From the NCBI RefSeq assembly GCF_040869035.1, contig NZ_CP162100.1:1054001-1118000 (forward strand): a stretch of 64,000 nucleotides of DNA, given 5' to 3'. Of the stretch, positions 38,645 through 61,886 are shown one piece after another (positions within the stretch are counted from its first letter, which is position 1; every line of letters begins with the position of its first letter). The notes beneath the pieces were generated by a model. That model ran no database searches and was not told the DNA's origin. It worked only from the letters and a program-made list of their open reading frames with translations. The DNA is from Vibrio sp. NTOU-M3 (GTDB taxonomy: Bacteria; Pseudomonadota; Gammaproteobacteria; Enterobacterales; Vibrionaceae). The translations under genes and the position numbers were made by a program.

Positions 38645-38748
38645 GGAGGCCCTGGTCCTCCCGCAACAATAGCTCGTGAACTCGGTCAGGTCCGGAAGGA
38701 AGCAGCCGCAGCGTGTGACTTGTGTGCCGGGATGTGGCTGGGGCCTTC
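38645..38748 (+). ncRNA. ffs: 4.5S RNA of the signal recognition particle
   Basis: The conserved domain IV loop is present (GGTCAGGTCCGGAAGGAAGC around 38685-38703), as are the flanking CTCCCGCAAC and GTGTGCCGGGATG blocks. The ends pair: GGAGGCCC at 38645 with GGGCCTTC at 38741, giving the usual terminal stem. With Ffh it targets membrane proteins to the Sec translocon and is essential. The transposon begins about 10 bp beyond its 3' end, so the gene itself stays intact. It is also the target of the element's own guide. Confidence 0.95.
38688..38705 (+). other. Protospacer in ffs matched by the element's homing guide
   Basis: These 18 bases equal the guide at 61804-61821 except at guide positions 6, 12 and 18. 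The two bases 5' of it are TC, a relaxed I-F3 PAM. Its 3' edge is 48 bp from the start of the inferred target-site duplication at 38754, the spacing expected for I-F3 insertion. Confidence 0.85.
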
Positions 38749-38753
38749 GCCCA

Positions 38754-38758
38754 TCTGA
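38754..38758. other. Inferred 5-bp target-site duplication (one copy)
   Basis: TCTGA lies immediately before the first TGT of the element. Tn7-like elements duplicate 5 bp; the second copy would be beyond the window, so this is inferred from the position of the end only. Confidence 0.5.
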
Positions 38759-38815
38759 TGTTTGCAACATATGTTCGCATAAATTGCAGAATAGTTTGCA
38801 AATTTGCATTATAAG
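38759..38815. repeat. Transposon end (ffs-proximal) with TnsB-type binding repeats
   Basis: The terminus reads TGTTTGCAACATATG, with the TGT end of Tn7-like elements. Two imperfect 21-bp direct repeats follow, beginning GTTCGCATAAATTGCAG at 38773 and GTTTGCAAATTTGCATT at 38794. Spaced 21-bp repeats at both ends are the TnsB binding sites of this family. It corresponds to the Tn7 right end, next to the target gene and tnsA. Confidence 0.75.
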
Positions 38816-38832
38816 CTTTCATAGACTATTTT

Positions 38833-38852
38833 TTGTTGTATGTTTACAACAA
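38833..38852. repeat. Inverted repeat just upstream of tnsA
   Basis: TTGTTGTA and TACAACAA are perfect 8-bp arms around TGTT, ending 13 bp before the tnsA ATG. It could be an operator or an mRNA hairpin limiting tnsA translation; no T run follows, so it is not a terminator. Confidence 0.5.
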
Positions 38853-38865
38853 AAGTGACTTGGCT

Positions 38866-39489
38866 ATGTTTGATCAAACTAAGAAATCATCTCACGTACA
38901 CAACATCTGTAAGTTCATGAGCTTGAAGAATGATGCTGTTATTCGTACTCTCTCTATTCTGGAGTTCGATTTCTGTTTTCACCTCGAATACAACCCAAAC
39001 ATCAAAAGTTTTATCTCTCAACCTTTTGGCTTTCATTACCAATTCAATAATCGTAAATGTCGATATACCCCAGATTTTTTAGTGACGGATCACAAGGGGC
39101 AATCAACATTCTTCGAGGTCAAACACTCTAGCCAGATTCTTAAACCTGATTTTAGGGAGCGCTTTGAAGAAAAGCAGAGAGTAGCGTTGAGTGAGTTCAA
39201 CAGACGGCTAGTTTTAGTTACTGAGAAGCAAATCAGGATGGGGCCAACGCTAGATAACTTTAAGTTGTTACACCGCTACTCAGGATTACGCACAGTGACC
39301 GAATTTCAAAAGCGAGTTTTGGCATTTATTCAACGCAAGCAAATGGTGAAGTTGCAAGAGGTGTCTTTGTATTTTGGTCTATCAGAGCAAGACACACTTA
39401 TCTCTACTCTACCTTGGATCTCTTCGGGGCACGTTAAAACAGACCTCAACACGATTGGCTTTGGTCTAGAAACTTGCGTTTGGTGCTAA
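38866..39489 (+). CDS. tnsA: TnsA, Tn7-like transposition endonuclease
   Basis: A 207-residue protein of the TnsA family, which cuts the 5' strands at the transposon ends so that the element moves by cut-and-paste. The PD-(D/E)xK core is visible: acidic residues at 33-41 (LEFDFCFHLEYNP), D70 in YTPDFLV and E84-V-K86 in FFEVKHS. The C-terminal part is the TnsC/TnsB-contacting region. ATG 38866 is preferred over an in-frame TTG at 38833 that lies inside the inverted repeat. It ends 2 bp before tnsB; tnsA-tnsB-tnsC form one operon reading away from ffs. Confidence 0.93.
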   Translation: MFDQTKKSSHVHNICKFMSLKNDAVIRTLSILEFDFCFHLEYNPNIKSFISQPFGFHYQFNNRKCRYTPDFLVTDHKGQSTFFEVKHSSQILKPDFRERFEEKQRVALSEFNRRLVLVTEKQIRMGPTLDNFKLLHRYSGLRTVTEFQKRVLAFIQRKQMVKLQEVSLYFGLSEQDTLISTLPWISSGHVKTDLNTIGFGLETCVWC

Positions 39490-39491
39490 CT

Positions 39492-41357
39492 ATGCCACCT
39501 GACTCTAATAATATATTTGGGTTCTTTGATGAGTTTGAAGCGTCAGAAGAAGAATCGCAATTGCTCCCAAAAGAGCTAATTCTAGAACCCATTGAAATAT
39601 CATCGACCATAGATAGCTTGCCAGCAAAAATTCAGGAAGAGGTTCTTCGCCGCATAAAAGTGATTACTTTTGTGGAGAAGCGCTTGAAAGGTGGGTGGAC
39701 TGAGAAAAACTTGAACCCCATCTTAAGTCTCGTTGAGTCAGAATTACAGCTTACTCCCCCTAGTTGGCGGACTGTAGCAACTTGGAAAAAATCCTACTCT
39801 GAAGCAGGTAGAGAACCATGGGCACTTATTCCGAAGCATACGTTTAAGGGCAACCGCCAGAAAGAAATCGATTCGCAATCCTTGATTGACGAGGCAATTC
39901 AGAACGTATACCTGACACGTGAACGACTTAGTGTTGCAGAAGCATACCGATATTATAAGAGTCGAGTAATTCAAATAAATCGAGAGATTGTTGAAGGAAA
40001 AATCAAGCCGATTAGCCAGCGTGCATTTTACAATCGAATAAATGAGTTACCCCCTTATGAAGTGGCGATTGCGAGATTTGGTAAACGATATGCAGATCGG
40101 GAGTATCGGTCGGTTGGTCAGCAAGTGGCTGCGACCAAACCAATGGAATATGTCGAAATTGACCATACCCCAGTTCCAGTGATTTTGATTGACGATGAGC
40201 TAGATATTCCTTTGGGCCGCCCCTATTTGACGATGCTTTATGACCGTTTCAGTAAGTGCATTGTTGGTTTCAGTATCAACTTTAGAGAGCCAAGCTTTGA
40301 CTCTGTTAGAAAGGCTCTGTTGAATTCACTTTTGGAGAAAAGCTGGCTTAAAGCAAAGTATCCATCGATTGAGAATGAGTGGCCTTGCCACGGTAAGATT
40401 GATTGTTTAGTTGTCGATAACGCTACCGAGTTTTGGAGTCAAAGCTTGGAAGATTCGTTAAGGCCTTTGGTGTCAGACATTCAATACAGTCAAGCAGCGA
40501 AGCCTTGGCAAAAGTCAGGGATCGAAAAGTTGTTCGATCAAATGAATAAAGGGTTAGTTAACGCGCTGCCTGGAAAAACTTTCACCAATCCTACTCAACT
40601 ACAAGATTACAATCCAAAGAAGGATGCGGTGGTCAGGGTATCGGTATTTCTTGAATTACTTCATAAATGGATTGTCGACTATTACCACATGACGCCTGAT
40701 TCTAGAGAGCGCGAGATCCCATACCACAAGTGGCACCAATCGAAATGGACGCCGTCTTACTATGATGGTGCTGAGAAGGAGCAACTCAGAGTAGAGTTAG
40801 GATTGCTTAGACACAGGACGATTGGAGTGGCCGGGATCAGGCTGCATAACTTACGCTATCAGTCCGCCGAGCTTATTGAATACCGGAAATATTGCACACC
40901 TAATAATGGCAACAAGCTCTTTGTTAAGACAAAAACAGATCCTTCTGATATCAGCTACATTCATGTTTACCTAGAATCAGAAAAGAAGTACATAAAAGTT
41001 CCAGCAGTAGACAACAGCGGGTATACAAACGGACTTTCACTTTTTGAACACCAGCGCATACAAAAAGTACGCAGACTGAACACCAAGGATCTTGCTGATG
41101 ATGAGGCTCTTGCGGATACATTTCTATATATGAAAAAACGTATCCAGGAAGAAACCGATAGATTCCGTCGTGTTAAAAGTAGCAAGCCCAATCTTCCTAA
41201 AACAGGTAACACTTCGAAATTAGCAAAGTTTAATGATGTCGGATCTGAGGGACCAAGCTCGATCAACGTGACTCCTGTTAGGCTCAAATCTGAGGTTGTT
41301 TCCGATGCCTCAGAGCACTTAGATGACGATGATTTTGAAGATATTGAAGGGTATTAA
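39492..41357 (+). CDS. tnsB: TnsB, DDE transposase of the Tn7-like element
   Basis: A 621-residue rve/DDE transposase that binds the end repeats and joins 3' ends to the target. The catalytic triad is readable as D224 (EIDHTPVPV), D309 (CLVVDNATEFW) and E345 (AKPWQKSGIEKLF). N-terminal HTH regions precede the core, and the C-terminal tail (after about residue 560) is polar and flexible, as is usual for the TnsC-binding part. Start ATG 39492 lies 2 bp after the tnsA stop. The length matches the family and the reading frame is intact. Confidence 0.95.
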   Translation: MPPDSNNIFGFFDEFEASEEESQLLPKELILEPIEISSTIDSLPAKIQEEVLRRIKVITFVEKRLKGGWTEKNLNPILSLVESELQLTPPSWRTVATWKKSYSEAGREPWALIPKHTFKGNRQKEIDSQSLIDEAIQNVYLTRERLSVAEAYRYYKSRVIQINREIVEGKIKPISQRAFYNRINELPPYEVAIARFGKRYADREYRSVGQQVAATKPMEYVEIDHTPVPVILIDDELDIPLGRPYLTMLYDRFSKCIVGFSINFREPSFDSVRKALLNSLLEKSWLKAKYPSIENEWPCHGKIDCLVVDNATEFWSQSLEDSLRPLVSDIQYSQAAKPWQKSGIEKLFDQMNKGLVNALPGKTFTNPTQLQDYNPKKDAVVRVSVFLELLHKWIVDYYHMTPDSREREIPYHKWHQSKWTPSYYDGAEKEQLRVELGLLRHRTIGVAGIRLHNLRYQSAELIEYRKYCTPNNGNKLFVKTKTDPSDISYIHVYLESEKKYIKVPAVDNSGYTNGLSLFEHQRIQKVRRLNTKDLADDEALADTFLYMKKRIQEETDRFRRVKSSKPNLPKTGNTSKLAKFNDVGSEGPSSINVTPVRLKSEVVSDASEHLDDDDFEDIEGY

Positions 41358-41358
41358 T

Positions 41359-42420
41359 TTGAATTTAACACCAAAGCAGCTTGAGCAGCTAAAGTCCTTT
41401 GAAACCAGCTTTATCGAGTATCCCGCGATAACTGAAATCTACTCCATTTTCGATCAACTTCGTTTCAATCACTCTTTAGGTGGTGAACCAGAGTCTTTCT
41501 TGTTAACTGGTGAGGCCGGAAGTGGAAAGACGGCTCTGATCAACCACTACTTATCACGCTTTCAATCAGGTTCAACTTGGGAAAAGCAGCCAGTATTAAG
41601 CACTAGAGTACCAAGCCGTATCAATGAACAGAATACGCTGACCCAATTTTTGGTTGATTTAGATTGTAAATCAGGAGGAAGAGGGGTTCGGCGACGTAAT
41701 GAAATTGCGCTTGGCGAAGCGGTTGTAAAGCAACTTAAACGTAAATCTGTTGAGCTGATTATTGTTAATGAAATTCAAGAGCTTGTTGAGTTTTCAACCG
41801 CAGAACAGAGACAAGTTATTGCCAACACATTCAAATATATAAGTGAAGAAGCAAGAGTCTCGTTTGTGCTAGTGGGTATGCCTTATGCTGATGTGATAGC
41901 GACAGAACCACAATGGAACTCGCGGCTAAGCTGGAGGAGAAAGATACATTATTTCAAGTTGTTGAAAGCGAATAGTCATTCGAGTAGAACGGCATCTTAT
42001 GGGGTTGACTTAGAACAAAAAAAGCATTTCGCCAGATTTGTCGCGGGTTTGAGTTCAAGGATGGGCTTTGATGAGCCACCAGTACTTACAAAGAATGAAC
42101 TGCTATATCCTTTGTTTGCAATGTGCCGAGGAGAATGTCGAGCGTTAAAACACTTCTTGAAAGACGCGTTGCTTATGAGCTTCAACGACAATGCGGATAC
42201 GATCGACCGAGCAATATTGTCACGCACTTTTGTATTTAAGTTCCCCTACCTAGATAACCCGTTTGATCGTCCTTTAGAGCAGCTTAGTCTTCATCAAATT
42301 GACTCTGGTTCTGTTTACAACTTAAATGCGATCACCACTGAAGATAAAATAGTGGCTCCTCGTTTTACTGACGCCATTCCGTTGAGCATGCTATTGAGTA
42401 AAAATGGGCTTAAAACTTAG
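41359..42420 (+). CDS. tnsC: TnsC, AAA+ regulator of transposition
   Basis: A 353-residue AAA+ ATPase that links the TniQ-Cascade target complex to TnsA/TnsB. Walker A is GEAGSGKT at residues 51-58, Walker B is LIIVNEIQEL near residue 135, and a sensor-like LVGMPYAD follows. The start is TTG 41359, one base after the tnsB stop, because GAAGGG lies 7 bp upstream; an in-frame ATG at 41323 overlaps tnsB and has no ribosome site. It is convergent with the Xre gene, 3 bp apart. Confidence 0.93.
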   Translation: MNLTPKQLEQLKSFETSFIEYPAITEIYSIFDQLRFNHSLGGEPESFLLTGEAGSGKTALINHYLSRFQSGSTWEKQPVLSTRVPSRINEQNTLTQFLVDLDCKSGGRGVRRRNEIALGEAVVKQLKRKSVELIIVNEIQELVEFSTAEQRQVIANTFKYISEEARVSFVLVGMPYADVIATEPQWNSRLSWRRKIHYFKLLKANSHSSRTASYGVDLEQKKHFARFVAGLSSRMGFDEPPVLTKNELLYPLFAMCRGECRALKHFLKDALLMSFNDNADTIDRAILSRTFVFKFPYLDNPFDRPLEQLSLHQIDSGSVYNLNAITTEDKIVAPRFTDAIPLSMLLSKNGLKT

Positions 42421-48641: not shown

Positions 48642-48680
48642 CGAATACTAAAAAGAATAATGATATAAAAAGGAATTTCA

Positions 48681-51600
48681 ATGTCAGAGACGGTTGATTC
48701 AAAAGACGCTCAAGGCTCTATTGTTCACAAGAGTAACTTTGCGTTTATGGACGTTGCCCGCAGCGGTGGCAGCGATGTATACACCACGCGTTGTGCCGAA
48801 ATACAAACTCGCGCCAAAAATGCGGAGCGCAACATCAAGACCGATCCGCGCATTGCTGGTTTCTATGCCCGCAATGCCTTGGAGTTAATGGTTGAAACCG
48901 TATTTGACATTGATAACTGGCTAGCCCGTCCTCGCCATGATGCGACTTTAATGTCGCTGATCCATGACAGTGGCTTTAAGCAAAGCCTCACCACCAACCT
49001 ATTTCCTAAGCTCAAGCTGGTGATTAAGCTGGGTAACGAGGCGGTACACAGCAAAACCACACTGCCACAGCGTGATGCCCTGCAAGCGGTGAAAGAGCTG
49101 CACCATGTACTGTATTGGTTTATTCGCACTTACACCCCTAATCTTGATCGCAGTCAGTTTGTGGTTCCGCCTTTTGATGAAGCGTTGATCCCGCAACAAG
49201 TCTCAATTGATGCGGCAGTGGCGACCAAAGCACTAAGCAGCATCAAACGGGTTCAAGAGCTAGAGAAGCTGCTAGAGCAAGAGGATAAAGTCGGGCGTGA
49301 CGCTTACCTCAAGCAGCTCAAAGAAAACGAGGCGCTCAAAGCCGCAAACCAAACCTTACTGGAGCAGATAGAACACGCCAAGCAAAGTGCGCAAAAAGTC
49401 ACCGATGCCCACGATTATAACGAGGCAGAAACACGCACGTATCTTATTGATGTGCTTCTCCATGAAGCAGGTTGGAAACTCGAGCATAAGCGAGACCGTG
49501 AATACCCTGTATCTGGCATGCCCATTTCGCAGGCCAACCCTAATGGCAATGGCTTTGTTGACTACGTTCTATGGGGAGATGACGGTACAGCGTTAGCGGT
49601 TGTTGAAGCCAAACGCACTCACCGCCGAGCCGAAGATGGGCAACAACAAGCCAAGCTTTACGCCGATTGTTTAGAAAAACAGTGTGGTGTGCGTCCGGTG
49701 ATTTTTTACACCAACGGCTATGAAACGTATCTGTGGGATGACCATTTTTACTCGCCACGTCAAGTTCAAGGCTTTTACACCAAAGCCGAACTTGAGCTTA
49801 TGGTAAAACGCCGCACCGACCGCAAACCTTTCTTTGAAAATGGCCAACCGAACAGCAATCTGGTGATTAACAACGACATCACCAACCGCCATTATCAAAA
49901 ATCGGCCATCACCAAACTATTGCAAGACTTTGAGCTAGAACATGAGCGCAAAGGGCTATTCGTGATGGCGACGGGGACGGGCAAAACTCGTACCGTGATC
50001 AGCCTTGTCGATTTATTGGTGAAGAATAATTGGGTTAAGAACATTCTGTTTCTTGCTGACCGTAATGCACTACTGACCCAAGCCAAGAAGAACTTTGTTA
50101 AGCTACTGCCTCGTGTCAGTTGCTCAATTCTTGACTCCAGCCAAAGCAAAAACAACATTGATAGTCGTTTGTACTTCTCGACATACCCAACCATGAAGAA
50201 TTTGCTTGATCGTGGCGCGAATGAGCGACCCTTTGGCGTCGGTCATTTCGATTTAATCGTGGTGGATGAAGCGCACCGTTCGGTCTACTCTAAATATCGT
50301 CAAATCTTTGAGTATTTTGATGGCTTCTTAGTGGGCTTAACCGCGACCCCCAAAGATGAAGTTGAAAAAGACACTTATGGCATTTTTGACCTGCAAAAAG
50401 GAATGCCAACCTACGCTTATGAAGACGAAAAAGCGTATGACCAAGGTTTTCTTGTGCCGCCAACCAAGATTTCTGTCGCGACCAAGTTCCTACGTGAAGG
50501 TGTGAAGTACAAAGACTTATCACCAGAAGAGCAAGAAGAGTGGGAAAACAAAGCTGAGCTGCAAGACAGAGATGAAGTATTGCCATCGGAGGTTAACAAG
50601 TTCTTATTTAACCAAGATACTGCCGAGAAGATGTTTGCTCAGTTAATGAGTAAAGACGAACGTGGCGGTATCCATGTTGAAGGTGGTGATGTGATTGGCA
50701 AAACCATCATCTTTGCTGCTAACAATGATCATGCGCTTTTCCTTGAGAAAATGTTCAATAAGAACTATCCCAAGTGGGCTGGCAAGCTAGCGCGAGTGAT
50801 CACCTTCAAAGAAACTTATGCTCAAAGCTTAATTGATGAATTCAGCGGCGACGAGAACGAACGTAAAGACTTTGACCCGAAAAACCCTACCTGCCGGATT
50901 GCTATTTCGGTCGACATGCTTGATACCGGGATCGACGTGCCTGAAGTGGTTAACCTAGTGTTCTACAAAGTGGTGCGCTCTAAAGTCAAATTCACCCAGA
51001 TGATTGGCCGCGGAACACGTTTGTGTAAAGACCTGTTTGGTCCGAATGACGATAAGAAAACGTTTAAGGTGTTTGATTACTGTCAGAACTTTGAATACTT
51101 CGATGCGAACCCGGAAGGTTTACCTGTAGGCGTCGCGAAACCCGTGACTCAACAGGTGTTCGAAAAACGCGTTTTACTCAGCACATTACTTAACAGCAAG
51201 TTGAATAATGAAGATTTCCGCGAACAAAACCCAGAAGACTGCGAGCGCTATTCTGAGTTAAACCGTTACCAACTGGATATGTTGCATCACATTGTCAGCG
51301 GGATGAATCTCGATAACTTTATCGTAAGGCCGAAGCGTCGAGCGATTGAGCCGTTTTTAGACCGTAAGTATTGGGATAGCATTGATGATGCGAAGTTTAC
51401 TGAGCTAGAGGATCAGATTTCACAGCTGCCAACGGAAGCGGAAGCCTTTAATTCTGATGAGCAACTTAATCACCTATCACACCGCTTTGATAGCTTAGTG
51501 TTAACCATGCAGTTAGACCTGTTAGAGAAAGGGATGATCGCTGAAACGCTTCGTGGAAGAGTGATCGAGTTCGCCGAGCAGTTAGAAGCCAAATCAACCA

Positions 51601-52310
51601 TTCCAGCAGTACAGGCTCAGTTAGCGCTCATTCAAGATGTTCAGACTCAAGAATTTTGGCAAGACATCCACTTAGTCACGCTGGAAGAGCTACGCCGTAA
51701 ATTACGCAATCTCATGTTTGCGTTGGACAAAGATAAAAAAGAGATGGTGTACACCAACTTTGAAGACGAAGTTCAAGGTGTCCATGACGTGACCAACGTA
51801 TACAAGAGCCCGAGTGTTGATTTGGCCCAGTACCGCAAAAAAATTGAGCTCTATATTAAAGGCCACCAAGATCATTTAACAATCCAAAAGTTAAAGCGCA
51901 ATAAGGCCATCACACAAGCAGATTTGGATGTTTTAGAAGGATTGCTATTGGAAGCGAGTGGGATTAGCGATGTTGAAACTTACCGTGAGAAAATCTTACA
52001 AGAGAAGCCTCTAGGTACCTTTATTCGCCAATTAGTCGGTTTAGATCAGAATGCGGCTAGAGAAGCATTTAGTGCCTTTCTCGATGAAGCGTCTTATAAC
52101 GCTGAACAGATTGAATTCATCGACCAAGTGATCGATTACCTCGTCAACAACGGGATTCTCGATATGTCACAACTTTTCGAGCCACCCTTTACTGATAACC
52201 ACGGCGAAAGCGCCTACGGCTTTTTTGATGAAGGCACCGTAGTGGAGTTGTTTGGGGTGATTCGCAAAGTGAACGCGAATGCCGTGGTTGCAGATAGCCA
52301 GAGTGCATAG
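48681..52310 (+). CDS. hsdR: Type I restriction endonuclease subunit HsdR
   Basis: A 1209-residue motor nuclease. An N-terminal DUF4145 domain (residues about 25-150) and a coiled coil precede the HSDR_N nuclease region with VVEAKRTHR near residue 305. The SF2 helicase follows with MATGTGKTRT near 428, VVDEAHRS near 527, GLTATPKDE and GRGTRLCKDLFG, then an EcoEI-type C-terminal domain. It translocates and cuts unmethylated DNA with HsdM and HsdS. All motifs appear intact. Confidence 0.94.
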   Translation: MSETVDSKDAQGSIVHKSNFAFMDVARSGGSDVYTTRCAEIQTRAKNAERNIKTDPRIAGFYARNALELMVETVFDIDNWLARPRHDATLMSLIHDSGFKQSLTTNLFPKLKLVIKLGNEAVHSKTTLPQRDALQAVKELHHVLYWFIRTYTPNLDRSQFVVPPFDEALIPQQVSIDAAVATKALSSIKRVQELEKLLEQEDKVGRDAYLKQLKENEALKAANQTLLEQIEHAKQSAQKVTDAHDYNEAETRTYLIDVLLHEAGWKLEHKRDREYPVSGMPISQANPNGNGFVDYVLWGDDGTALAVVEAKRTHRRAEDGQQQAKLYADCLEKQCGVRPVIFYTNGYETYLWDDHFYSPRQVQGFYTKAELELMVKRRTDRKPFFENGQPNSNLVINNDITNRHYQKSAITKLLQDFELEHERKGLFVMATGTGKTRTVISLVDLLVKNNWVKNILFLADRNALLTQAKKNFVKLLPRVSCSILDSSQSKNNIDSRLYFSTYPTMKNLLDRGANERPFGVGHFDLIVVDEAHRSVYSKYRQIFEYFDGFLVGLTATPKDEVEKDTYGIFDLQKGMPTYAYEDEKAYDQGFLVPPTKISVATKFLREGVKYKDLSPEEQEEWENKAELQDRDEVLPSEVNKFLFNQDTAEKMFAQLMSKDERGGIHVEGGDVIGKTIIFAANNDHALFLEKMFNKNYPKWAGKLARVITFKETYAQSLIDEFSGDENERKDFDPKNPTCRIAISVDMLDTGIDVPEVVNLVFYKVVRSKVKFTQMIGRGTRLCKDLFGPNDDKKTFKVFDYCQNFEYFDANPEGLPVGVAKPVTQQVFEKRVLLSTLLNSKLNNEDFREQNPEDCERYSELNRYQLDMLHHIVSGMNLDNFIVRPKRRAIEPFLDRKYWDSIDDAKFTELEDQISQLPTEAEAFNSDEQLNHLSHRFDSLVLTMQLDLLEKGMIAETLRGRVIEFAEQLEAKSTIPAVQAQLALIQDVQTQEFWQDIHLVTLEELRRKLRNLMFALDKDKKEMVYTNFEDEVQGVHDVTNVYKSPSVDLAQYRKKIELYIKGHQDHLTIQKLKRNKAITQADLDVLEGLLLEASGISDVETYREKILQEKPLGTFIRQLVGLDQNAAREAFSAFLDEASYNAEQIEFIDQVIDYLVNNGILDMSQLFEPPFTDNHGESAYGFFDEGTVVELFGVIRKVNANAVVADSQSA

Positions 52311-52327
52311 GATTTAATTGATAGAAA

Positions 52328-55300
52328 ATGAAATTACTTGATAGAAAATATTACAATCTTCAGCCAAAATGGTCCTATATAAGTGATAAGTATATATTAG
52401 GGTTAGCATGGAAAAAGTCTGATGGATTTATTAGAAGCCATAACTGGTATGCTGACTTATTGTCGTTAGATAATACTACTTTTAGTATTGGTAATAAGAT
52501 TGATTATTGGTCAAATAAAATTAAAGAACCTAATTTTAGCAATAATGAATTGCATTTAATCCCTGCACCTAAATCTGCAAAGTGGTTTATTGAAAAGGCA
52601 AAGAAAAGTCAAAAACCAAAGTGGACTCAAAAGAAAGAAGATCGAAAACTTCGGCCATTAGCGAATATTGATATTGAAGACCAGACTATTGCAACTGCAA
52701 TTACAATGTGTCTTGCAGATGCCCTTGAAACAAGGCAAAAAAATTGTTCCCTGATAGAGCAAGACTATACAGATCATATTACTAATTGTGTCGTAAGTTA
52801 TGGTAACCGTTTGTTGTGTGATTGGGAAAACGGCGTTGCTAGATTTAGATGGGGAGGGAGTGAATTTTATAGGAAATACTCTTCTGACTATCGAGCTTTT
52901 TTACAAAGACCTATATCAATTGGTCGAGAGACACAAAAAAAAGTGAGTACTGCTGACGAAGTTTATATCGTAAATATAGATCTGAAAAACTTTTTTGGCT
53001 CAATAAAAATAGATTTGTTATTTGACCAGCTGGAACGAATAGCATCGAAACATTATGAGAATGAGAATAAATCAAACTATGTGCATGATTCAATGTTTTG
53101 GATTAGAGCAAAGAGTGTATTTAGTTGGGACTGGTCAACAGACTCAAAAAAAATTGCTGATAGTTTAGATATACCAACATCGGTAGGTTTACCGCAAGGT
53201 TTAGCATCTTCAGGAGCTTTATCTAATGCGTACTTGATTGGCTTTGATGAAAAAATAGTAGAAAAAGTAGGAAGTGAAATAAGTGACAGTAAAATTAAAT
53301 TACATGACTACTGTAGGTATGTTGATGACCTTCGATTTGTAGTTTCTGGTGAGTCTATAGATAAAGAACATATAAAGAACACTATTGAAAATTTTGTTCA
53401 AGAGTTTTTAGATGAAGATTTGCATCAAAATAGTGATGACACTGCTTCAGAACAACAAGTATTAAAAATAAATGATTCTAAAACTCAAGTTTTCGAACTA
53501 GCAGACTTAGATAATTGGAGTAGTTTGACAAATAGGGTTAACGAATTACAAGATCATATTGGCCCATCTGGTGTGCCAGATAGAGATACCCTAGAGTCAA
53601 GTATACCTGCACTCCAACAATTACTTCAAATAGAATCTGATGATGTTCTCCAAGAATTCGAAAAAGAATTCTCAGATCTTAGTGTAGGCAATGCTATTAA
53701 AATTGAATCAATTAGAAAGTTTTCTGCTAATAGATTAAGTTCAACTTTTATAGAAAAAAGAAAAATTTTGTCAGAAACAGAGAAAATTCAACAAGATAAT
53801 GAGTCTCGTGTTATCGCTAAAAAGCTACTGTCAACTTGGTTGAAAGATCCATCCGTGATGGTTTTACTTCGCAAAGCTATAGAAATAAATCCATCGGTGT
53901 CTCTTTATGAAAAAATATTCGAACAGGTAGTAAGTAGGGTATTAAGTAGAGGAAGTGTAGAAGATAAATATATCATGATTTATATCATGTCTGATATATT
54001 TAGGAGCTCTGTAGATCTTTACCGAAAATTAGATTCTAGTAGAGTAAAAAATTATAAATATTTTATTAGCCTAATTACCTCTCTTGCACAGAAAATCTTA
54101 TCAAGTCGAGCTAGGCTTCCAGAATATATAAACTCTCAAGCATTGTTTTATCTTATTGTTGTTAAGCAGCCATTCTTTGATACGAAGAAAACTACACCAA
54201 GAATTGAAAGGCTTCATAAGGTATTAATGAAGCAACGCTTGATGGATATTGATGAAGATGATGGGTATTTATTTGAGCTTGCCTCTCAAATCAATGATGA
54301 CTATCAAAGCAATGTGACATTTTTACTTTCTCATTCTGAACATAGTCTGGCGTTAGATAAAATTATAGAAATGTATGCATTCCATGGCGGTAAATTTTGG
54401 CTTTTTCTTTGGGAAGAAATGTCAAGGGTGAACACAGAAAGATATCTTGAAAAGTATCGTTGGGCCATTCCAACTTTAAATAAAAAAACTAAACCTAGTG
54501 GTACTAGTCATTTTCTTTCATCAATTACTAGCTTTGATGATAACCCATTCAAGTATGAGCACTCTTTATTGAAATTAGGCATTGAATTGGCGAAAAAAAT
54601 AAGAGATGGTGAGCCAGGAGAGTGGTTACATAGATCTCCTCATGAAATTAAAGTTAACTTACATGGAACCCAGTCTTGGGGGGATATTTGGAAAAGTTAT
54701 ACAGAAATAAAATGCGAATTGGAACCTAAAGGGCAAGACTATTTTGACCCTAGATATAAGACGCCAGACTGGTTAACTAGCTCTTCGGACTATGCAGAAG
54801 AGTTAACTGAAACTGATGAGCAGAGAGTTTATTGGATTTGCAGCTTACTAAGAGGTGCTGCACTAGGTAATGTTGATTACACACAAAGAAATGACTTGAA
54901 ACCGGATGAACTAAAATATTCTGGAATTCGAACTCAATGGCTTAAAAGACGAATGGGAATGTTGCATTCGCCAGAGTCTATAGTTGGTACGTACGGTACT
55001 ATTAGTGATTGGTTTGCACATCTGCTCCAACATGGCCTTCAGTGGCCAGGATTTTCTTCTTCATATATTGAAGAAGATGAGATACTTTCTATTAAGAACT
55101 TAGATGATTTTGCAAATTGTTTGAAGAAGAGGTTGGAAAAGTTAGAGACTTATGTGTGTAGGTCTTCTGATGTACCATCTTTACCTACGGTTATGAATAG
55201 ACCTGAGCTAAAGAAAGATCTATTCAGAGTTGTGACAGTGCAGCAGTTATTTCCTAAGGACAAAGACTTTCACTTATCTGATGTAACTCTCGATCATCCT

Positions 55301-56068
55301 AATATTAGATGGAAGCACCGTGAGCATTTGGCAGAGATATGTAAGTTAACAGAACAAACCTTGAGTGCAAAATTAAGAACAGAATCGCGAGATTACGAAA
55401 GTACAGCAGATTTGATCGTTTTTTCTGAGGTTGCTGTTCATCCTGATGATGAGGACATTATTCGAGGACTAGCACTCAGAACTAAAGCTATAGTTTTTGC
55501 TGGTTTTGTATTTACTAAACATGATGACCAAATTGTTAACAAGGCTCGCTGGATAATTCCGGACAAAGCCGAGTTTGGTATGCAGTGGCGCATTCGAGAT
55601 CAAGGTAAATACCATATGACGGATGGTGAATTATCGTTAGGAGTTAGGAGCTATAGACCGTGTCAGCACATCATTGAAATCTTGGGTAGTCCAGAAGGAC
55701 CCTTTAAGATAACTGGCGCTATTTGTTATGATGCAACGGATATTCAATTAGCTGCTGACTTGAGAGACAAAACTGATATGTTTGTAATTGCAGCACACAA
55801 TAAAGATGTAAATACATTTGACAATATGGCTTCCGCTCTTCAATGGCACATGTATCAGCACATTGTGATTACCAATACTGGCGAATATGGTGGCTCTACA
55901 ATGCAGGCGCCTTATAAAGAGAGCTACCATAAGTTGATCTCGCATGCTCATGGAGCCAACCAGATAGCGATTAGTACTGCTGATATTGACCTTGCTGCAT
56001 TTAGACGAAGAGTAAAAGAATACAAAAAAACAAAAGCTCAGCCTGCTGGCTTTGCTCGAAAACATTAA
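52328..56068 (+). CDS. Defence-associated reverse transcriptase fused to nitrilase (DRT type 1-like)
   Basis: A 1246-residue protein, AT-rich relative to its neighbours. The RT domain (residues about 60-400) shows motif A VNIDLKNFFGS near 218, motif B GLPQGLASSGALSNAYL near 288 and motif C YCRYVDDLRF near 328. A long helical middle region follows. The C terminus (about 1020-1240) is nitrilase-like: FSEVAVH (Glu), a lysine in the NKARWIIPD region and GAICYDATD (Cys). The RT-nitrilase pairing defines the UG1/DRT type 1 antiphage family, usually with a small membrane protein; one follows after 8 bp. The active sites look intact. Confidence 0.87.
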   Translation: MKLLDRKYYNLQPKWSYISDKYILGLAWKKSDGFIRSHNWYADLLSLDNTTFSIGNKIDYWSNKIKEPNFSNNELHLIPAPKSAKWFIEKAKKSQKPKWTQKKEDRKLRPLANIDIEDQTIATAITMCLADALETRQKNCSLIEQDYTDHITNCVVSYGNRLLCDWENGVARFRWGGSEFYRKYSSDYRAFLQRPISIGRETQKKVSTADEVYIVNIDLKNFFGSIKIDLLFDQLERIASKHYENENKSNYVHDSMFWIRAKSVFSWDWSTDSKKIADSLDIPTSVGLPQGLASSGALSNAYLIGFDEKIVEKVGSEISDSKIKLHDYCRYVDDLRFVVSGESIDKEHIKNTIENFVQEFLDEDLHQNSDDTASEQQVLKINDSKTQVFELADLDNWSSLTNRVNELQDHIGPSGVPDRDTLESSIPALQQLLQIESDDVLQEFEKEFSDLSVGNAIKIESIRKFSANRLSSTFIEKRKILSETEKIQQDNESRVIAKKLLSTWLKDPSVMVLLRKAIEINPSVSLYEKIFEQVVSRVLSRGSVEDKYIMIYIMSDIFRSSVDLYRKLDSSRVKNYKYFISLITSLAQKILSSRARLPEYINSQALFYLIVVKQPFFDTKKTTPRIERLHKVLMKQRLMDIDEDDGYLFELASQINDDYQSNVTFLLSHSEHSLALDKIIEMYAFHGGKFWLFLWEEMSRVNTERYLEKYRWAIPTLNKKTKPSGTSHFLSSITSFDDNPFKYEHSLLKLGIELAKKIRDGEPGEWLHRSPHEIKVNLHGTQSWGDIWKSYTEIKCELEPKGQDYFDPRYKTPDWLTSSSDYAEELTETDEQRVYWICSLLRGAALGNVDYTQRNDLKPDELKYSGIRTQWLKRRMGMLHSPESIVGTYGTISDWFAHLLQHGLQWPGFSSSYIEEDEILSIKNLDDFANCLKKRLEKLETYVCRSSDVPSLPTVMNRPELKKDLFRVVTVQQLFPKDKDFHLSDVTLDHPNIRWKHREHLAEICKLTEQTLSAKLRTESRDYESTADLIVFSEVAVHPDDEDIIRGLALRTKAIVFAGFVFTKHDDQIVNKARWIIPDKAEFGMQWRIRDQGKYHMTDGELSLGVRSYRPCQHIIEILGSPEGPFKITGAICYDATDIQLAADLRDKTDMFVIAAHNKDVNTFDNMASALQWHMYQHIVITNTGEYGGSTMQAPYKESYHKLISHAHGANQIAISTADIDLAAFRRRVKEYKKTKAQPAGFARKH

Positions 56069-56633: not shown

Positions 56634-57845
56634 GTGAAAACGGACATTCAACTTTACCCTGACGAATCGCTTGAAAGCTTCTTGTTGCGCTTATCGCAAG
56701 AACAAGGCTACGAGCGATTTTCTCATTTTGCTGAAGACATCTGGTTTGACACGTTGGATCAGCATGAAGCGATTCCCGGTGCTTTCCCTCTTGAGCTCAA
56801 CCGAATCAATATCTACCACGCGCAAACCACAAGCCAAATGCGGGTGCGAGTGCTTATCCATCTTGAGAACCAATTAAAACTCAATAACTTTGGTGCACTT
56901 CGTCTTGCGTTGTCACATTCAAAAGCTCAATTTTCTCCCGCATACAAAGCCGTTCATCGGTTGGGTTCTGATTATCCTTTTGTTTTTCTTGCTAAACGCT
57001 TCACGCCTATTTGCCCCTTATGTATTAGTGAGGCCCCATACATTCGCCAGCTGTGGCAATTTATCTCTTACCAAGTTTGTGAGCGCCATAGCTGTAAATT
57101 GGTTCATCACTGCCCAGAGTGCCAATCGAGATTGGAGTACCAAACCACTGAGAGTATTAGCCTGTGCGAATGCGGTTTTGAACTCCGCAACTCACCGGTT
57201 GCAGATGCGCCAGTGGCTGCGCTACTGGTTGCTCGATGGTTGTCAGGAAATGACTCAAAACCTTTGGGATTATTGAATGCTAAAATGACGCTCTCTGAGC
57301 GCTATGGCTTTTTACTATGGTACGTTAATCGTTACGGCGATATTGAGAACATCAGTTTTGATTCATTTGTTGAGTATTGTGCTTGTTGGCCAAGAGTGCT
57401 GGAGGAGGAACTCGATGAGTTGGTAAACAAAGCCGATCTCATTCGAATCAAAGATTGGAAAAAGACGTTTTTCAATGAGGTTTTTGGCGCTTTGCTTAAA
57501 GATTGCCGCCAGTTACCAAGTAGGCAGTTAGAGCGTAATAGCGTGCTCACTCAAGTGTTAGCCTACTTTACAAAGTTAATGGCAACACTACCTTCAAGCA
57601 GCAAAGGGAATGTAGGCGATGTGCTGTTAAGCCCGTTAGAAGCTTCTACATTACTTTCTTGCACAACGGATGAGGTGTATCGGTTGTATGAGTTTGGTGA
57701 AATTAAAGCAGCGATTAGGCCGCGGATGCATACCAAAATTGCCAGTCATGAATCGGCGTTCACCCTAAGAAGTGTCATCGAAACAAAGCTGACTCGAATG
57801 TGCTCTGAAAATGACGGTTTAAGCGTATACCTACCTGAGTGGTAA
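56634..57845 (+). CDS. tniQ: TniQ (TnsD-like) targeting protein of the I-F3 transposon
   Basis: A 403-residue TniQ. The TniQ domain begins at residue 6 (YPDESLESFLLRL). Zinc-binding residues are visible at C127/C130, C149/H152, C160/C163 and C178/C180. TniQ binds the PAM-distal end of Cascade and recruits TnsC. Start is GTG 56634, as the overlapping ATG is out of frame. It is the first gene of tniQ-cas8/5-cas7-cas6, its stop lying 2 bp before the cas8/5 start. This is the only TniQ-type protein in the visible part of the element. Confidence 0.93.
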   Translation: MKTDIQLYPDESLESFLLRLSQEQGYERFSHFAEDIWFDTLDQHEAIPGAFPLELNRINIYHAQTTSQMRVRVLIHLENQLKLNNFGALRLALSHSKAQFSPAYKAVHRLGSDYPFVFLAKRFTPICPLCISEAPYIRQLWQFISYQVCERHSCKLVHHCPECQSRLEYQTTESISLCECGFELRNSPVADAPVAALLVARWLSGNDSKPLGLLNAKMTLSERYGFLLWYVNRYGDIENISFDSFVEYCACWPRVLEEELDELVNKADLIRIKDWKKTFFNEVFGALLKDCRQLPSRQLERNSVLTQVLAYFTKLMATLPSSSKGNVGDVLLSPLEASTLLSCTTDEVYRLYEFGEIKAAIRPRMHTKIASHESAFTLRSVIETKLTRMCSENDGLSVYLPEW

Positions 57846-57847
57846 TT

Positions 57848-59935
57848 ATGACGAAATTAAGTGATCTACTAGCAATTGAAGACGAAGCAATAAAACAAAC
57901 GGCTCTAAAAAAGATGTTCATGCCCTATATAGAAGACGTTTGTGTTGATGGGTATGAACAAGAAACGTTGACGATTTTGCTTAATCTCAGTTCAAGCCAT
58001 CAAGCTGATAGATGCTTGGATTGGTTGGATGTAGCTCGGGCTCAAAGGTATTTAAAAGACCGCGAAAACTTAGATGCCTCTCTTGCTGAAATCCAGTGGT
58101 TCCACACACATAACCTAAAGTTTCCAGACTGTCGTGTTAAGGACCAGCGGATAATTGCGCGGCCTCTTTCTACAGCCGAGGAGTTTATTTCAAGTGCAGT
58201 ATTGGATCAGCGATTGGGATGGGCTCATAACTCTGCTGTCTATCGTCATACATTGTGGTTACTGAATCCTTTTAAATGGCAATCACAGCCAGTGTGTGTT
58301 CTTTCGCTTATTCAGCAGAAAAATCCAGTTTGGCTTGATCTGCTTACAGAATTTGGCTTGGATGTGAAGTCACTTGCTCGCTTACAACGTGCAATTGAAG
58401 AACAGCTTCCTGAGAATAGTTTTCCCGACAGTGTTAGTACTTACAGTAAGCAATTACGGTTTCCTTGGGGGGATGATTATGTTTCGATCACCCCCGTTGT
58501 GAGTCACGCTCTTCAGTGCGAACTAGAAATAAGAGCGCGAAGTACAGAAAACAAGTTCAGTTTTGTCTCTTCGTCACTGCCTAATTCCGCCAGTATTGGG
58601 AACCTGTGTGGCAGTTTGGGTGGGTATATGAGAGTCCTAAATTACCCGCTAGGTGTTAAGCAGGCCAAGGGTGGGACGTTAACGGAAAACCGTCAAAAGA
58701 GAGGTCATTACTTTGATGACTATCAGGTAACTAACGCCAAAATTTGTCAGGTACTAAATCGCCTAATTGGATCTGAGCCAGCCAAAACACAGCGGCAAAG
58801 AGAAAGAGCTCGTCAGGTGAGGAGTAAGATTTTACGAAAGCAGATAGCCTTATGGATGCTTCCACTCATTGAATTAAGAGATATCGCCGAATCTGAACCC
58901 AATCAGGTGCAACTAGAGCATGACGATACCTTAGCTCAAGCTTTTTTGTCGTTACCAGAATTGGAGCTTGGCTCTTTGGCTGGTGAGTTTAACCGACGCT
59001 TACATCTCGCGTTTCAAAATAATATCTATTCTGCCAAGTTTGCTTATCATCCCAAATTGATGCAGGTAGCTAAAGCCCAAGTGACATGGGTGCTTGAGCA
59101 ACTTAGTAACCCAATTAACAATCAAGATATGGTGACGGGGGAGCAATATATCTACCTGACGTCAATGAGAGTACAAGATGCGGCAGCGATGAGTAATCCT
59201 TGTTTGTGTGGTGTGCCGTCTTTGACGGCCATTTGGGGATTCATGCACGATTATCAAAGGAAATTTAATCAATTAGTTAACAATGGTTCCCCAGTTGAGT
59301 TTTCGAGTTTCGCTTTTTATGTTCGAAACGAGAATATTCAATCAACAGCGAAGCTTACTGAACCTAATTCAGTCACCAAAGCCAGAACGGTTTCTAATGC
59401 GAAACGACCGACCATTCGTAGTGAACGATTGGCGGACCTAGAAATAGACTTAGTTATCAGAGTTCATAGTGAAAGCCGAATTTCAGATTTTAGATCAGCG
59501 CTTAAAACGGCCCTTCCCGTTGCTTTCGCCGGAGGGGCATTATACCAACCACAGCTATCGATGCAGATTGAGTGGCTTAGAACATTTACAGGCAGGAGTG
59601 AACTTTTCCATGTTTTAAAAGGATTACCTGCATACGGGCGATGGTTATACCCAAGTGAAAAGCAACCTACTAATTTTGATGAGTTAGAGCGGTTGCTCAC
59701 TCAAGACGATGATAACTTGCCCGTTTCTCTTGGTTACCATTTATTAGAGCATCCAACTAAGAGGGGTAACGCAATCACAGGTTGTCATGCTTATGCGGAG
59801 AATGCGATAGGGCTAGCTAAGCGAATAAACCCGATAGAGGTCCGTTTTAGTGGACGAGATCACTTTTTAAACCACGCCTTTTGGTCGATAGAATGCAGTA
59901 GCGAAACTATTCTTATAAAAAACTATAGGGATTAA
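57848..59935 (+). CDS. cas8f: Cas8f-Cas5f fusion, large subunit of type I-F3 Cascade
   Basis: A 695-residue protein at the operon position of the natural Cas8f/Cas5f fusion of transposon-encoded I-F systems. The middle contains a Csy2/Cas5-like stretch (GSLGGYMRVLNYPLGVKQ, then RKQIALWMLPLIELRDI). It recognises the PAM and the 5' handle of the crRNA. There is no Cas2/3 effector nearby, so the complex binds but does not degrade. Start ATG 57848 follows the tniQ stop by 2 bp. Confidence 0.9.
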   Translation: MTKLSDLLAIEDEAIKQTALKKMFMPYIEDVCVDGYEQETLTILLNLSSSHQADRCLDWLDVARAQRYLKDRENLDASLAEIQWFHTHNLKFPDCRVKDQRIIARPLSTAEEFISSAVLDQRLGWAHNSAVYRHTLWLLNPFKWQSQPVCVLSLIQQKNPVWLDLLTEFGLDVKSLARLQRAIEEQLPENSFPDSVSTYSKQLRFPWGDDYVSITPVVSHALQCELEIRARSTENKFSFVSSSLPNSASIGNLCGSLGGYMRVLNYPLGVKQAKGGTLTENRQKRGHYFDDYQVTNAKICQVLNRLIGSEPAKTQRQRERARQVRSKILRKQIALWMLPLIELRDIAESEPNQVQLEHDDTLAQAFLSLPELELGSLAGEFNRRLHLAFQNNIYSAKFAYHPKLMQVAKAQVTWVLEQLSNPINNQDMVTGEQYIYLTSMRVQDAAAMSNPCLCGVPSLTAIWGFMHDYQRKFNQLVNNGSPVEFSSFAFYVRNENIQSTAKLTEPNSVTKARTVSNAKRPTIRSERLADLEIDLVIRVHSESRISDFRSALKTALPVAFAGGALYQPQLSMQIEWLRTFTGRSELFHVLKGLPAYGRWLYPSEKQPTNFDELERLLTQDDDNLPVSLGYHLLEHPTKRGNAITGCHAYAENAIGLAKRINPIEVRFSGRDHFLNHAFWSIECSSETILIKNYRD

Positions 59936-59941
59936 TCGCTT

Positions 59942-60973
59942 ATGGAACTTTGCACTCAGTTGAACTATGTCCGATCACTTTCTGCTGGCAAAGCTTATTT
60001 CTACTATCTATCCGAAAGTGGTGAGATGTGCCCCCTTAATGTAGATAGAACCCGATTGCGCGCACCAAAAGGGAGTTATTCAGAAGCATATAAGGGGAAC
60101 AAGTTCGTCGAGAAGAATGTTGCCCCCCAAGACTTGGCCTATTCGAACCCGCAGTTCATCGAAGAGTGCTATGTAAAGCCCGGCGTTGATGAAATCTATT
60201 GCGCATTTTCACTTCGAATTCGAGCCAATTCGTTAACACCGGATATGTGTAGTGATGATGAAGCACGCAGAAAACTGTCTATGCTTGCTAAAATTTATAA
60301 AGATCTCAACGGATACAAAGAGTTAGCCCATCGTTATGCGAAGAACATCCTGCTTGGTACTTGGTTATGGCGAAATCGTCAATGTAGAAATATCACTATT
60401 GAAGTGACGACCAGTGAATTGGATACCTTTGTTGTCGAACATGCTCAAAAACTCTCTTGGTATGGTCATTGGGATGGTGATTCAACAGAATGCTTAGAAA
60501 GGCTTACAGCCTATCTGGAGCGAGCATTGTCTGACCCAACCGAATACTTCTACATGGACGTCAAAGCGAAAATGCAGGTTGGCTGGGGAGATGAGGTTTA
60601 CCCAAGCCAAGAGTTTTTGGATAGTCGAGAAGATGGACTCCCTACTAAGCAGCTAGCCAAAATAGATCTTTTAAGCGGAAAAGAAACCGTCGCGTTTCAC
60701 GGACAAAAAGTTGGTGCCGCGTTGCAATCGATTGATGATTGGTGGCATGAAAACGCAGATAAGCCATTAAGAGTGAATGAATATGGCGCTGACCGAGAAT
60801 ACGTAATAGCAAGGCGACACGTAACCCATGGAAATGACTTTTACCAATTAGTTAGAAATACAGAGAGTTGGATTGAGACAATGACAGCTTCTCAGACCAT
60901 CCCAAATGATGTGCACTTTATTATGTCTGTCTTGATCAAAGGCGGCCTCTTCAATTGTTCCAAAGCGAAGTAA
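59942..60973 (+). CDS. cas7f: Cas7f (Csy3), crRNA backbone subunit
   Basis: A 343-residue Csy3-family protein: NYVRSLSAGKAYFYYLS at the start, GTWLWRNRQCRNI near residue 140, and EVYPSQEFLD in the thumb region. Multiple copies coat the spacer, each kinking one base out every six. It starts 6 bp after cas8/5f. The complex needed for the short guide would hold fewer copies than one for a 32-nt guide. Confidence 0.94.
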   Translation: MELCTQLNYVRSLSAGKAYFYYLSESGEMCPLNVDRTRLRAPKGSYSEAYKGNKFVEKNVAPQDLAYSNPQFIEECYVKPGVDEIYCAFSLRIRANSLTPDMCSDDEARRKLSMLAKIYKDLNGYKELAHRYAKNILLGTWLWRNRQCRNITIEVTTSELDTFVVEHAQKLSWYGHWDGDSTECLERLTAYLERALSDPTEYFYMDVKAKMQVGWGDEVYPSQEFLDSREDGLPTKQLAKIDLLSGKETVAFHGQKVGAALQSIDDWWHENADKPLRVNEYGADREYVIARRHVTHGNDFYQLVRNTESWIETMTASQTIPNDVHFIMSVLIKGGLFNCSKAK

Positions 60974-60979
60974 GGAATA

Positions 60980-61588
60980 ATGATGATAAAGCGTTACTAC
61001 TTCTTAATACGTTACATACCTGCACAAGCCGATCATGAATTATTGGCAGGACGGTGTATATCCCAAATGCACTTGTTTATGGTCAATAACCGACAAGCAA
61101 TGAATAGGGTTGGTGTGAGCTTCCCTGATTGGAATGAATCTACAGTTGGCCAAACAATTGCCTTTGTTTCTGAAGACAAAGAGATGATGATTGGACTTTC
61201 TTTTCAGCCCTATTTCTCTTTGATGGTGAAAGAAGGTTTATTCGAACTATCGAGTATCTGTGAGGTACCGGAGAACTTGGGGGAAGTAAGGTTTGTTCGC
61301 AACCAAACGATTAACAAGAGCTTTTTAGGCTCGAAGAAACGGCGAATTAAACGTAGCATGGTGAGAGCCGAGCTTTCTGGGGCTGAACAACGATTACCAG
61401 TAACGAACGAAGACCGTGTCATCGATAGTTTTCATCGAATACCAATCTCCAGCGGTTCATCTGGGGAAGATTATATGTTGTTTGTACAAAAGGAGTTTGT
61501 CGGTGAGCGTGGTGGAGCAAACTTCAATAGCTATGGTTTAGCCACCAATCAAGAAAGAAGAGGAACGGTGCCTGACTTACGCTGTTAA
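60980..61588 (+). CDS. cas6f: Cas6f (Csy4), crRNA-processing endoribonuclease
   Basis: A 202-residue Csy4. The catalytic histidine is H31 (QMHLFMVNN), followed by RVGVSFPDWN, which matches the RIGVSFPD segment of known Csy4. It cleaves each repeat after its stem-loop and stays on the 3' hairpin. The array begins 128 bp downstream. Confidence 0.92.
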   Translation: MMIKRYYFLIRYIPAQADHELLAGRCISQMHLFMVNNRQAMNRVGVSFPDWNESTVGQTIAFVSEDKEMMIGLSFQPYFSLMVKEGLFELSSICEVPENLGEVRFVRNQTINKSFLGSKKRRIKRSMVRAELSGAEQRLPVTNEDRVIDSFHRIPISSGSSGEDYMLFVQKEFVGERGGANFNSYGLATNQERRGTVPDLRC

Positions 61589-61716: not shown

Positions 61717-61849
61717 GTCACCTGTCGCATAGACAGCCAAGAATCAAAAAGGGCAAGTTCTCATCTCTTAAAAAAGTGACCTGCCGCATAGGCAGCCAAG
61801 AATAGGTCAGGAAGAAAGCAACCTACCTGTTGAACAAGCAGTTAATAAT
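61717..61849 (+). CRISPR. I-F3 CRISPR array: three repeats, with a short homing guide
   Basis: Repeats (28 nt) lie at 61717-61744, 61776-61803 and 61822-61849. The second starts GTGACCTGCCGCATAGGCAG, ending CCAAGAAT; the first differs by compensating changes in the stem (CTGTC/GACAG). The third is degenerate, with 17 of its last 25 bases matching the second and a stem of CTGTT with AGCAG kept. Spacer 1 is 31 nt (61745-61775) of unknown target. Spacer 2 is only 18 nt (61804-61821) and matches ffs. There is no adaptation gene, so the array is probably static. Confidence 0.93.
61804..61821 (+). other. Short self-homing guide against ffs
   Basis: The guide AGGTCAGGAAGAAAGCAA matches ffs 38688-38705 at 15 of 18 positions; mismatches fall at 6, 12 and 18, the bases flipped out by Cas7. 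A 32-nt reading adds 14 bases of which only a few match. Confidence 0.85.
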
Positions 61850-61850
61850 C

Positions 61851-61886
61851 AAAACCATCAAGTTTTCTCTTGGTGGTTTTTTGTTT
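61851..61886 (+). terminator. Terminator after the CRISPR array
   Basis: AACCATCAAG and CTTGGTGGTT pair (one G-U) around TTTTCT and are followed by a T run (TTTTTTGTTT). It begins 2 bases after the last repeat and would end the pre-crRNA. Confidence 0.85.

Follow-up and report, generated by a model that had tools for sequence, protein, structure and literature searches.

The element behind ffs

The window, i.e., the whole stretch of 64,000 nucleotides that was analyzed, contains a Tn7-like I-F3 CRISPR transposon directly behind ffs, comprised of tnsABC, cargo genes, tniQ, cas8/5-cas7-cas6 and an array of three repeats. Its features are as follows.

38650..38746, +, ffs, small SRP RNA gene and attachment gene (Rfam RF00169, 73 bits)
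38686..38687, +, TC in the PAM position, adjoining the protospacer (sequence)
38688..38707, +, protospacer of the homing guide, 20 nt, mismatches at 6, 12 and 18 (sequence comparison)
38751..38755, +, 5-bp target-site duplication CCATC, also outside the other end (read by eye)
38756..38766, +, tnsA-proximal transposon end, TGATGTTTGCA, 68 bp from protospacer nt 1
38833..39489, +, tnsA (Pfam PF08722)
39474..41357, +, tnsB (Pfam PF09299 and position)
41323..42420, +, tnsC (Pfam PF05621 TniB)
56634..57845, +, tniQ (Pfam PF06527)
57839..59935, +, cas8/5 (Pfam Cas_Csy2 in the C-terminal half; probable fusion from its length and the gene order)
59942..60973, +, cas7 (csy3; Pfam PF09615, NCBIfam TIGR02566)
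60980..61588, +, cas6 (csy4; Pfam PF09618, NCBIfam TIGR02563)
61717..61744, +, CRISPR repeat 1 (sequence)
61745..61775, +, spacer 1, 31 nt (sequence)
61776..61803, +, CRISPR repeat 2 (sequence)
61804..61821, +, homing spacer, 18 nt (pairing extends to 61823, 20 nt)
61822..61849, +, degenerate third repeat, stem CTGTT/AGCAG (17/28 identical to repeat 2, five of five hairpin pairs kept)
61851..61880, +, terminator-like hairpin closing the array (sequence and folding)

The gene set of an I-F3 CAST (tnsA, tnsB, tnsC, tniQ, cas8/5, cas7 and cas6) is complete in this one element, and the effector genes identified in the window are those of Cascade; a profile search of the genome of the window (G000) with the I-F Cas2/3 profile TIGR02562 gave no match. 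As in other I-F3 elements, the homing guide matches the gene adjoining the tnsA-proximal end, and a 5-bp duplication (CCATC) lies at both ends. The element departs from the usual I-F3 arrangement in its homing spacer of 18 nt, which pairs over 20 nt instead of forming a guide of about 32 nt, and in having inserted 68 bp, rather than about 80 bp, from the protospacer's PAM-side end. Among these traits, the ffs attachment site alone points to a possible place in the I-F3b branch (PMC11406308; this and the other PMC sources are cited from excerpts).

The far transposon end falls beyond the window, near position 67339 if its numbering is continued, and is followed by CCATC again. A transposon end at the TGT at 38759 was rejected, since the far end and the duplicated CCATC place the end at TGATG, 38756; the duplication search for this locus (L255) had used the TGT end, three bases off, and CCATC was therefore read by eye. 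In about twenty relatives, the ffs-adjoining transposon end (38756-38800 in the window) has the sequence TGAAGCCTGCAAT...ATTGCAGGCTTTC. This terminator-like hairpin, immediately after ffs, could replace the terminator of ffs itself in many relatives. The cargo between tnsC and tniQ includes a defence-like type I restriction-modification set (45817-52310) and a defence-like protein of 1246 aa with a reverse-transcriptase domain (52328-56068).

The short homing guide and its match to ffs

A sequence-only reading had proposed that the degenerate third repeat sets the last spacer at 18 nt, and this is confirmed by the hairpin-bearing repeat at 61822-61849. Among the 127,944 28-mers of both window strands, only four combine at least 17 identities with the full stem; three are the array repeats and the fourth lies elsewhere (20498 in the scan). 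The same reading had the match to ffs covering exactly 18 bases, which proved too short by two: the CC of repeat 3 carries the match to 20 nt, with 17/20 positions matching from 38688 and pairing lost after nt 20. Its mismatches at positions 6, 12 and 18 were borne out as the sole mismatches within these 20 nt. Apart from this guide and ffs itself, no 20-mer in the whole window reaches 15/20 to the ffs core.

The comparison was extended to 50 short-guide genomes (their definition is given in the next section). TC occupies the PAM position in 50/50, and the atypical repeat begins with CC, extending the pairing to 20 nt, in 49/50. When each guide was set against ffs from the same genome, 16/50 had 6, 12 and 18 as their only mismatched positions up to nt 20, and identity at these three positions occurs in one, none and one of the 50, respectively. 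At the non-flipped positions between 21 and 32, long guides pair at a mean of 7.3/10 and short guides at 2.9, the short ones stopping after nt 20.

These data bear on the idea that the short spacer is a relic in decay, with the elements kept at ffs through descent or a different targeting protein. Such an idea draws on the coverage of the Pfam scan, which took in 18 of the 65 window ORFs of at least 100 aa, and on the part of the element that lies outside the window; however, the ORFs scanned contain only one TniQ, and the insertion distances described below are constant within a few bp in nearly all measured cases. Moreover, positions 1-2, 5, 8, 9, 11 and 16 match in 50/50 short guides (G-U allowed), while position 12 never matches and position 18 does so once. 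This pattern implies selection on pairing, not decay, and makes a relic highly unlikely.

Short spacing in related elements

Searches with Cas6 gave matches in 65/227 genomes of the genus, 71/296 of the family, 28/394 of the order, and 9/52 and 25/152 of two further groups, the sets partly overlapping; the Cas6 of Tn6900, used as a query for related loci, found one locus. Genomes with ffs-like guides were tabled (71), and the guide could be read in 70 of them. The spacing is 18 nt in 39 genomes, 19 nt in nine (two of these calls rest on a weak stem placed by hand) and 20 nt in six; it is 30-34 nt in 15 and unclear in one. Stem places were set by hand in G706, G264, G248, G033 and G697. The short spacing (18-20 nt) was found in 54/70 genomes. 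The sequence-only reading had named, as possible counterevidence, related elements with no third repeat and a match to ffs extending to 32 nt; relatives with 30-34-nt ffs guides do exist, but they come from separate lineages whose insertions lie about 12 bp farther from the target, and were counted as support for the short reading. An assignment of 32-nt guides to L048-L056 was rejected, because the repeat detector had overlooked their last repeats and the guides are 19-20 nt on reading; one genome with two full-length-looking ffs guides (G426) was left out of the table.

The terminal repeats allow the opposite reading of the array to be weighed, namely that Cas6 ignores the degenerate repeat, so that a guide of at least 32 nt runs into repeat 3 and forms a normal six-Cas7 complex with a mismatched PAM-distal third. 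Repeat 3 is indeed merely 17/28 identical to repeat 2, homing guides do have PAM-distal mismatches, and the 46-nt crRNA (61796-61841), folded alone, is predicted to prefer pairing between guide and repeat 3 over the Cas6 hairpin, which would be disrupted (z -1.8; window sequence only). On the other hand, the third-repeat hairpin stands at a fixed place among relatives, with one pair doubly changed from U-A to C-G in 5/33 rows, and it is kept in the terminal repeats of both guide-length classes. The alignment took in 33 of the 39 distinct short terminal repeats, and its 100% stem pairing is by construction, as the finder required five pairs; the finder failed in three of 68 rows (G264, G248 and G292). 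Since the insertion distances, too, fit a complex ending near nt 20, read-through of the third repeat is improbable.

Insertion distance and guide length

The distance D, in bases, separates protospacer nt 1 from the transposon end and was counted where ffs and the array lie on one contig. With short guides (n = 46), D is 68-75 with a mean of 68.9 (68 in 30, 69 in seven, 70 in one, 71 in four, 72 in three and 75 in one); with long guides (n = 13) it is 79-84 with a mean of 80.5, so that the two classes do not overlap. A Mann-Whitney test on D treats the genomes as independent and thus overstates significance. On a Cas6 tree of 73 rows, three changes of length class are needed and two independent pairs differ in guide length; both pairs agree with the shift (2/2, sign test p = 0.5), too few for significance. 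In the window's end type, D is flat across spacings of 18, 19 and 20 nt (means 68.1, 68.3 and 68.0; n = 24, 9 and 1), as expected if all of these guides hold the same number of Cas7 copies, i.e., share one common complex size. In this comparison, the short spacing is conserved and goes together with insertion distance.

Eleven of the 70 rows were left out of the count: G042 (no ffs match found), G086 (contig ends), G292 (unclear), G170 (decayed, cas6 broken), six with ffs and array on different contigs (G213, G166, G147, G215 and G096, with D 68 each, and G387, with D 83), and G695 (33 nt, scripted D = 72), also on another contig, whose matched end is without transposase-like sites. Eight D values came from end strings named by hand (G051, G144, G275, G265, G291, G257, G697 and G033). 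Duplications were found in 8/17 elements tried, two of them by eye or with a corrected end, and none in the examined stretch for the other nine. The outlier G301 combines an 18-nt spacer and a 5-bp duplication with D = 75, and counts against the model given below.

The shift in distance might instead be due to the transposase lineage, as TGT-type ends occur in 13/13 long-guide ffs insertions and another type occurs in 34/46 short-guide ones. However, short guides with TGT-type ends (n = 12) give D 68-75, still below the 13 long ones, and the window's end type gives 68-69 with the 34 short guides at ffs but 79 with a 32-nt plasmid spacer (next section). Two TnsABC modules, whose TnsB proteins are about 36-39% identical, both occur with short guides, and both lie below the long class in D. 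Together with a difference of 14 bp between elements with similar TnsB at another landing site, this renders the transposase lineage a very doubtful cause. In the tns regions of L129-L143, two distant TnsABC modules accompany tniQ-cas modules that are close relatives of one another, which points to an exchange of modules.

Contrasts at other landing sites

The 3′ end of an AraC-type gene is a second attachment site and the landing place in G021 and G190. The G021 element has a 32-nt guide, D 83 and the duplication GCGTT; that of G190, whose far end lies outside the examined stretch, has a 22-nt guide, which pairs with the target up to nt 20 apart from positions 12, 13 and 18, and D 69. The TnsB proteins at this site are 73% identical, yet D differs by 14 bp.

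The plasmid pTHAF190c_c of Vibrio sp. THAF190c carries an element with an 18-nt ffs spacer, an end of the window's type and proteins 81-93% identical to those of the window. Its landing site is a cytosine methyltransferase gene, matched by the element's own spacer 1 (32 nt) at only 23/32 positions next to the PAM CC; D is 79 and AAAAG is duplicated. Among shuffled versions of this spacer, 0/10,000 match the landing stretch as well, and the best of 300 over the 39-kb stretch reaches 22. The element, with cas8/5 now in two frames, may no longer be active. The spacers of pVpen (G116 C3) gave no landing match, the best reaching 19-20 of 32. Taken together, the distances at ffs, at the AraC site and on the plasmid indirectly support the shortened Cascade proposed by the sequence-only reading, with a Cas7 number deduced from guide length.

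A proposed smaller complex for homing

Relatives with short guides insert closer to the target by about 12 bases, which suggests homing by a smaller guide complex. It appears quite likely that the TniQ-Cascade built on the homing crRNA would contain about four Cas7 copies, not six, and that the insertion point would thereby move inward by about 12 bp. A feasible model may be that Cas6 cuts at the third repeat, degenerate yet still folded, and that the last spacer-repeat unit yields a crRNA of about 46 nt (8-nt handle, 18-nt spacer and 20-nt 3′ part), of which 20 nt could pair with ffs. The short guide would hold about four Cas7 copies in place of six, so that Cas6, TniQ and everything downstream would be shifted about 12 bp toward the PAM and TnsABC would insert about 68-72 bp, and not about 80, from the start of the protospacer. 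With the 31-34-nt spacers in these arrays, the ordinary larger complex would form for other targets, giving one cas operon two effector sizes.

Shortened spacers reportedly gave little or no integration in another I-F3 system (Klompe, 2019). The wording of a review on this result is ambiguous in the excerpt available (PMC10188703). In VchCAST, mismatches PAM-distal to the seed abolish transposition, and a 20-nt guide would thus need a changed check (PMC13345079). The proposed dimensions are consistent with published ones: a 20-nt match with four Cas7 copies fits the type I-F1 rule by which length is 6N-4, N being the number of Cas7 copies (PMC7296934), and the published structure places insertion 82 bp from the PAM, a 32-nt guide plus 50 for the TniQ, TnsC and TnsB footprints, from which subtraction of 12 nt of guide predicts a D of 70 (PMC13345079).

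It is also tempting to speculate, with about even confidence, that one operon serves two effector sizes, a six-Cas7 form for plasmids and a four-Cas7 form for homing, with guide length as a molecular ruler for landing; the short form may also be useless to resident I-F1 immunity, and short guides at two attachment sites would represent a repeated solution. The benefit is perhaps that an immune I-F1 Cas2/3 would be unable to act on such a short R-loop. An I-F1-type Cas2/3 was found in 7/75 genomes searched, four of them with short guides (G098, G071, G301 and G051), one with a long guide and two added for their I-F1-like Cas6; its presence in short-guide genomes shows coexistence, not function.

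Relation to known systems

The closest known likeness is AsCAST/Tn6900 of A. salmonicida, which shares with the window tnsABC, tniQ, cas8/5-7-6, an atypical last repeat and an ffs guide with a TC PAM and mismatches at every sixth base. By contrast, the array of pS44-1 (L004), whose element we take to be Tn6900, has a full-length ffs spacer with its last stem at nt 38 (by eye), whereas the stem in the window is at nt 24. The gene ffs is the attachment gene of I-F3b and of AsCAST (PMC11406308, PMC12774636). In type V-K CASTs, the spacer of the homing crRNA is likewise truncated, to about 17 nt (PMC12719977, PMC11406308), but their effector is the single protein Cas12k with a tracrRNA-type guide, unlike a multi-subunit Cascade whose length follows the guide. 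In its excerpts, one review groups V-K and most I-F3 elements as systems with short homing spacers, its sole length example being V-K. Engineered I-F1 Cascades with spacers shortened by 12 nt to 20 nt resemble the proposed complex, as four Cas7 copies were predicted for them and R-loop length follows spacer length; they are, however, laboratory constructs for defence in which Cas2/3 was not triggered, and the window element is natural and tied to transposition (PMC7296934). Thus, short homing spacers in V-K elements and mismatched ones in I-F3 elements are already known from these excerpts; a full-text literature search, beyond whose reach the likeliest primary papers lay, found no account of I-F3 homing guides that are shortened and accompanied by a shift in insertion.

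If the model holds, it would describe a natural type I effector that differs in size between two jobs of one element, readable from the landing place. How TniQ and TnsC check that an R-loop is complete when the PAM-distal third is missing becomes a testable question, and tools for RNA-guided integration may gain a guide format that is shorter and possibly private.

Additional ffs copies

In five relatives, L149, L150, L151 and L153 (G275, G265, G291 and G257) and L047 (G210), the element apparently carries an ffs-like gene for SRP RNA of its own, a second copy placed a few hundred bases past the array, with a changed protospacer in its core; Rfam scores the second copy in all five. A 30-nt-guide element (G706:C1:1986275-2009445) is flanked by two ffs copies.
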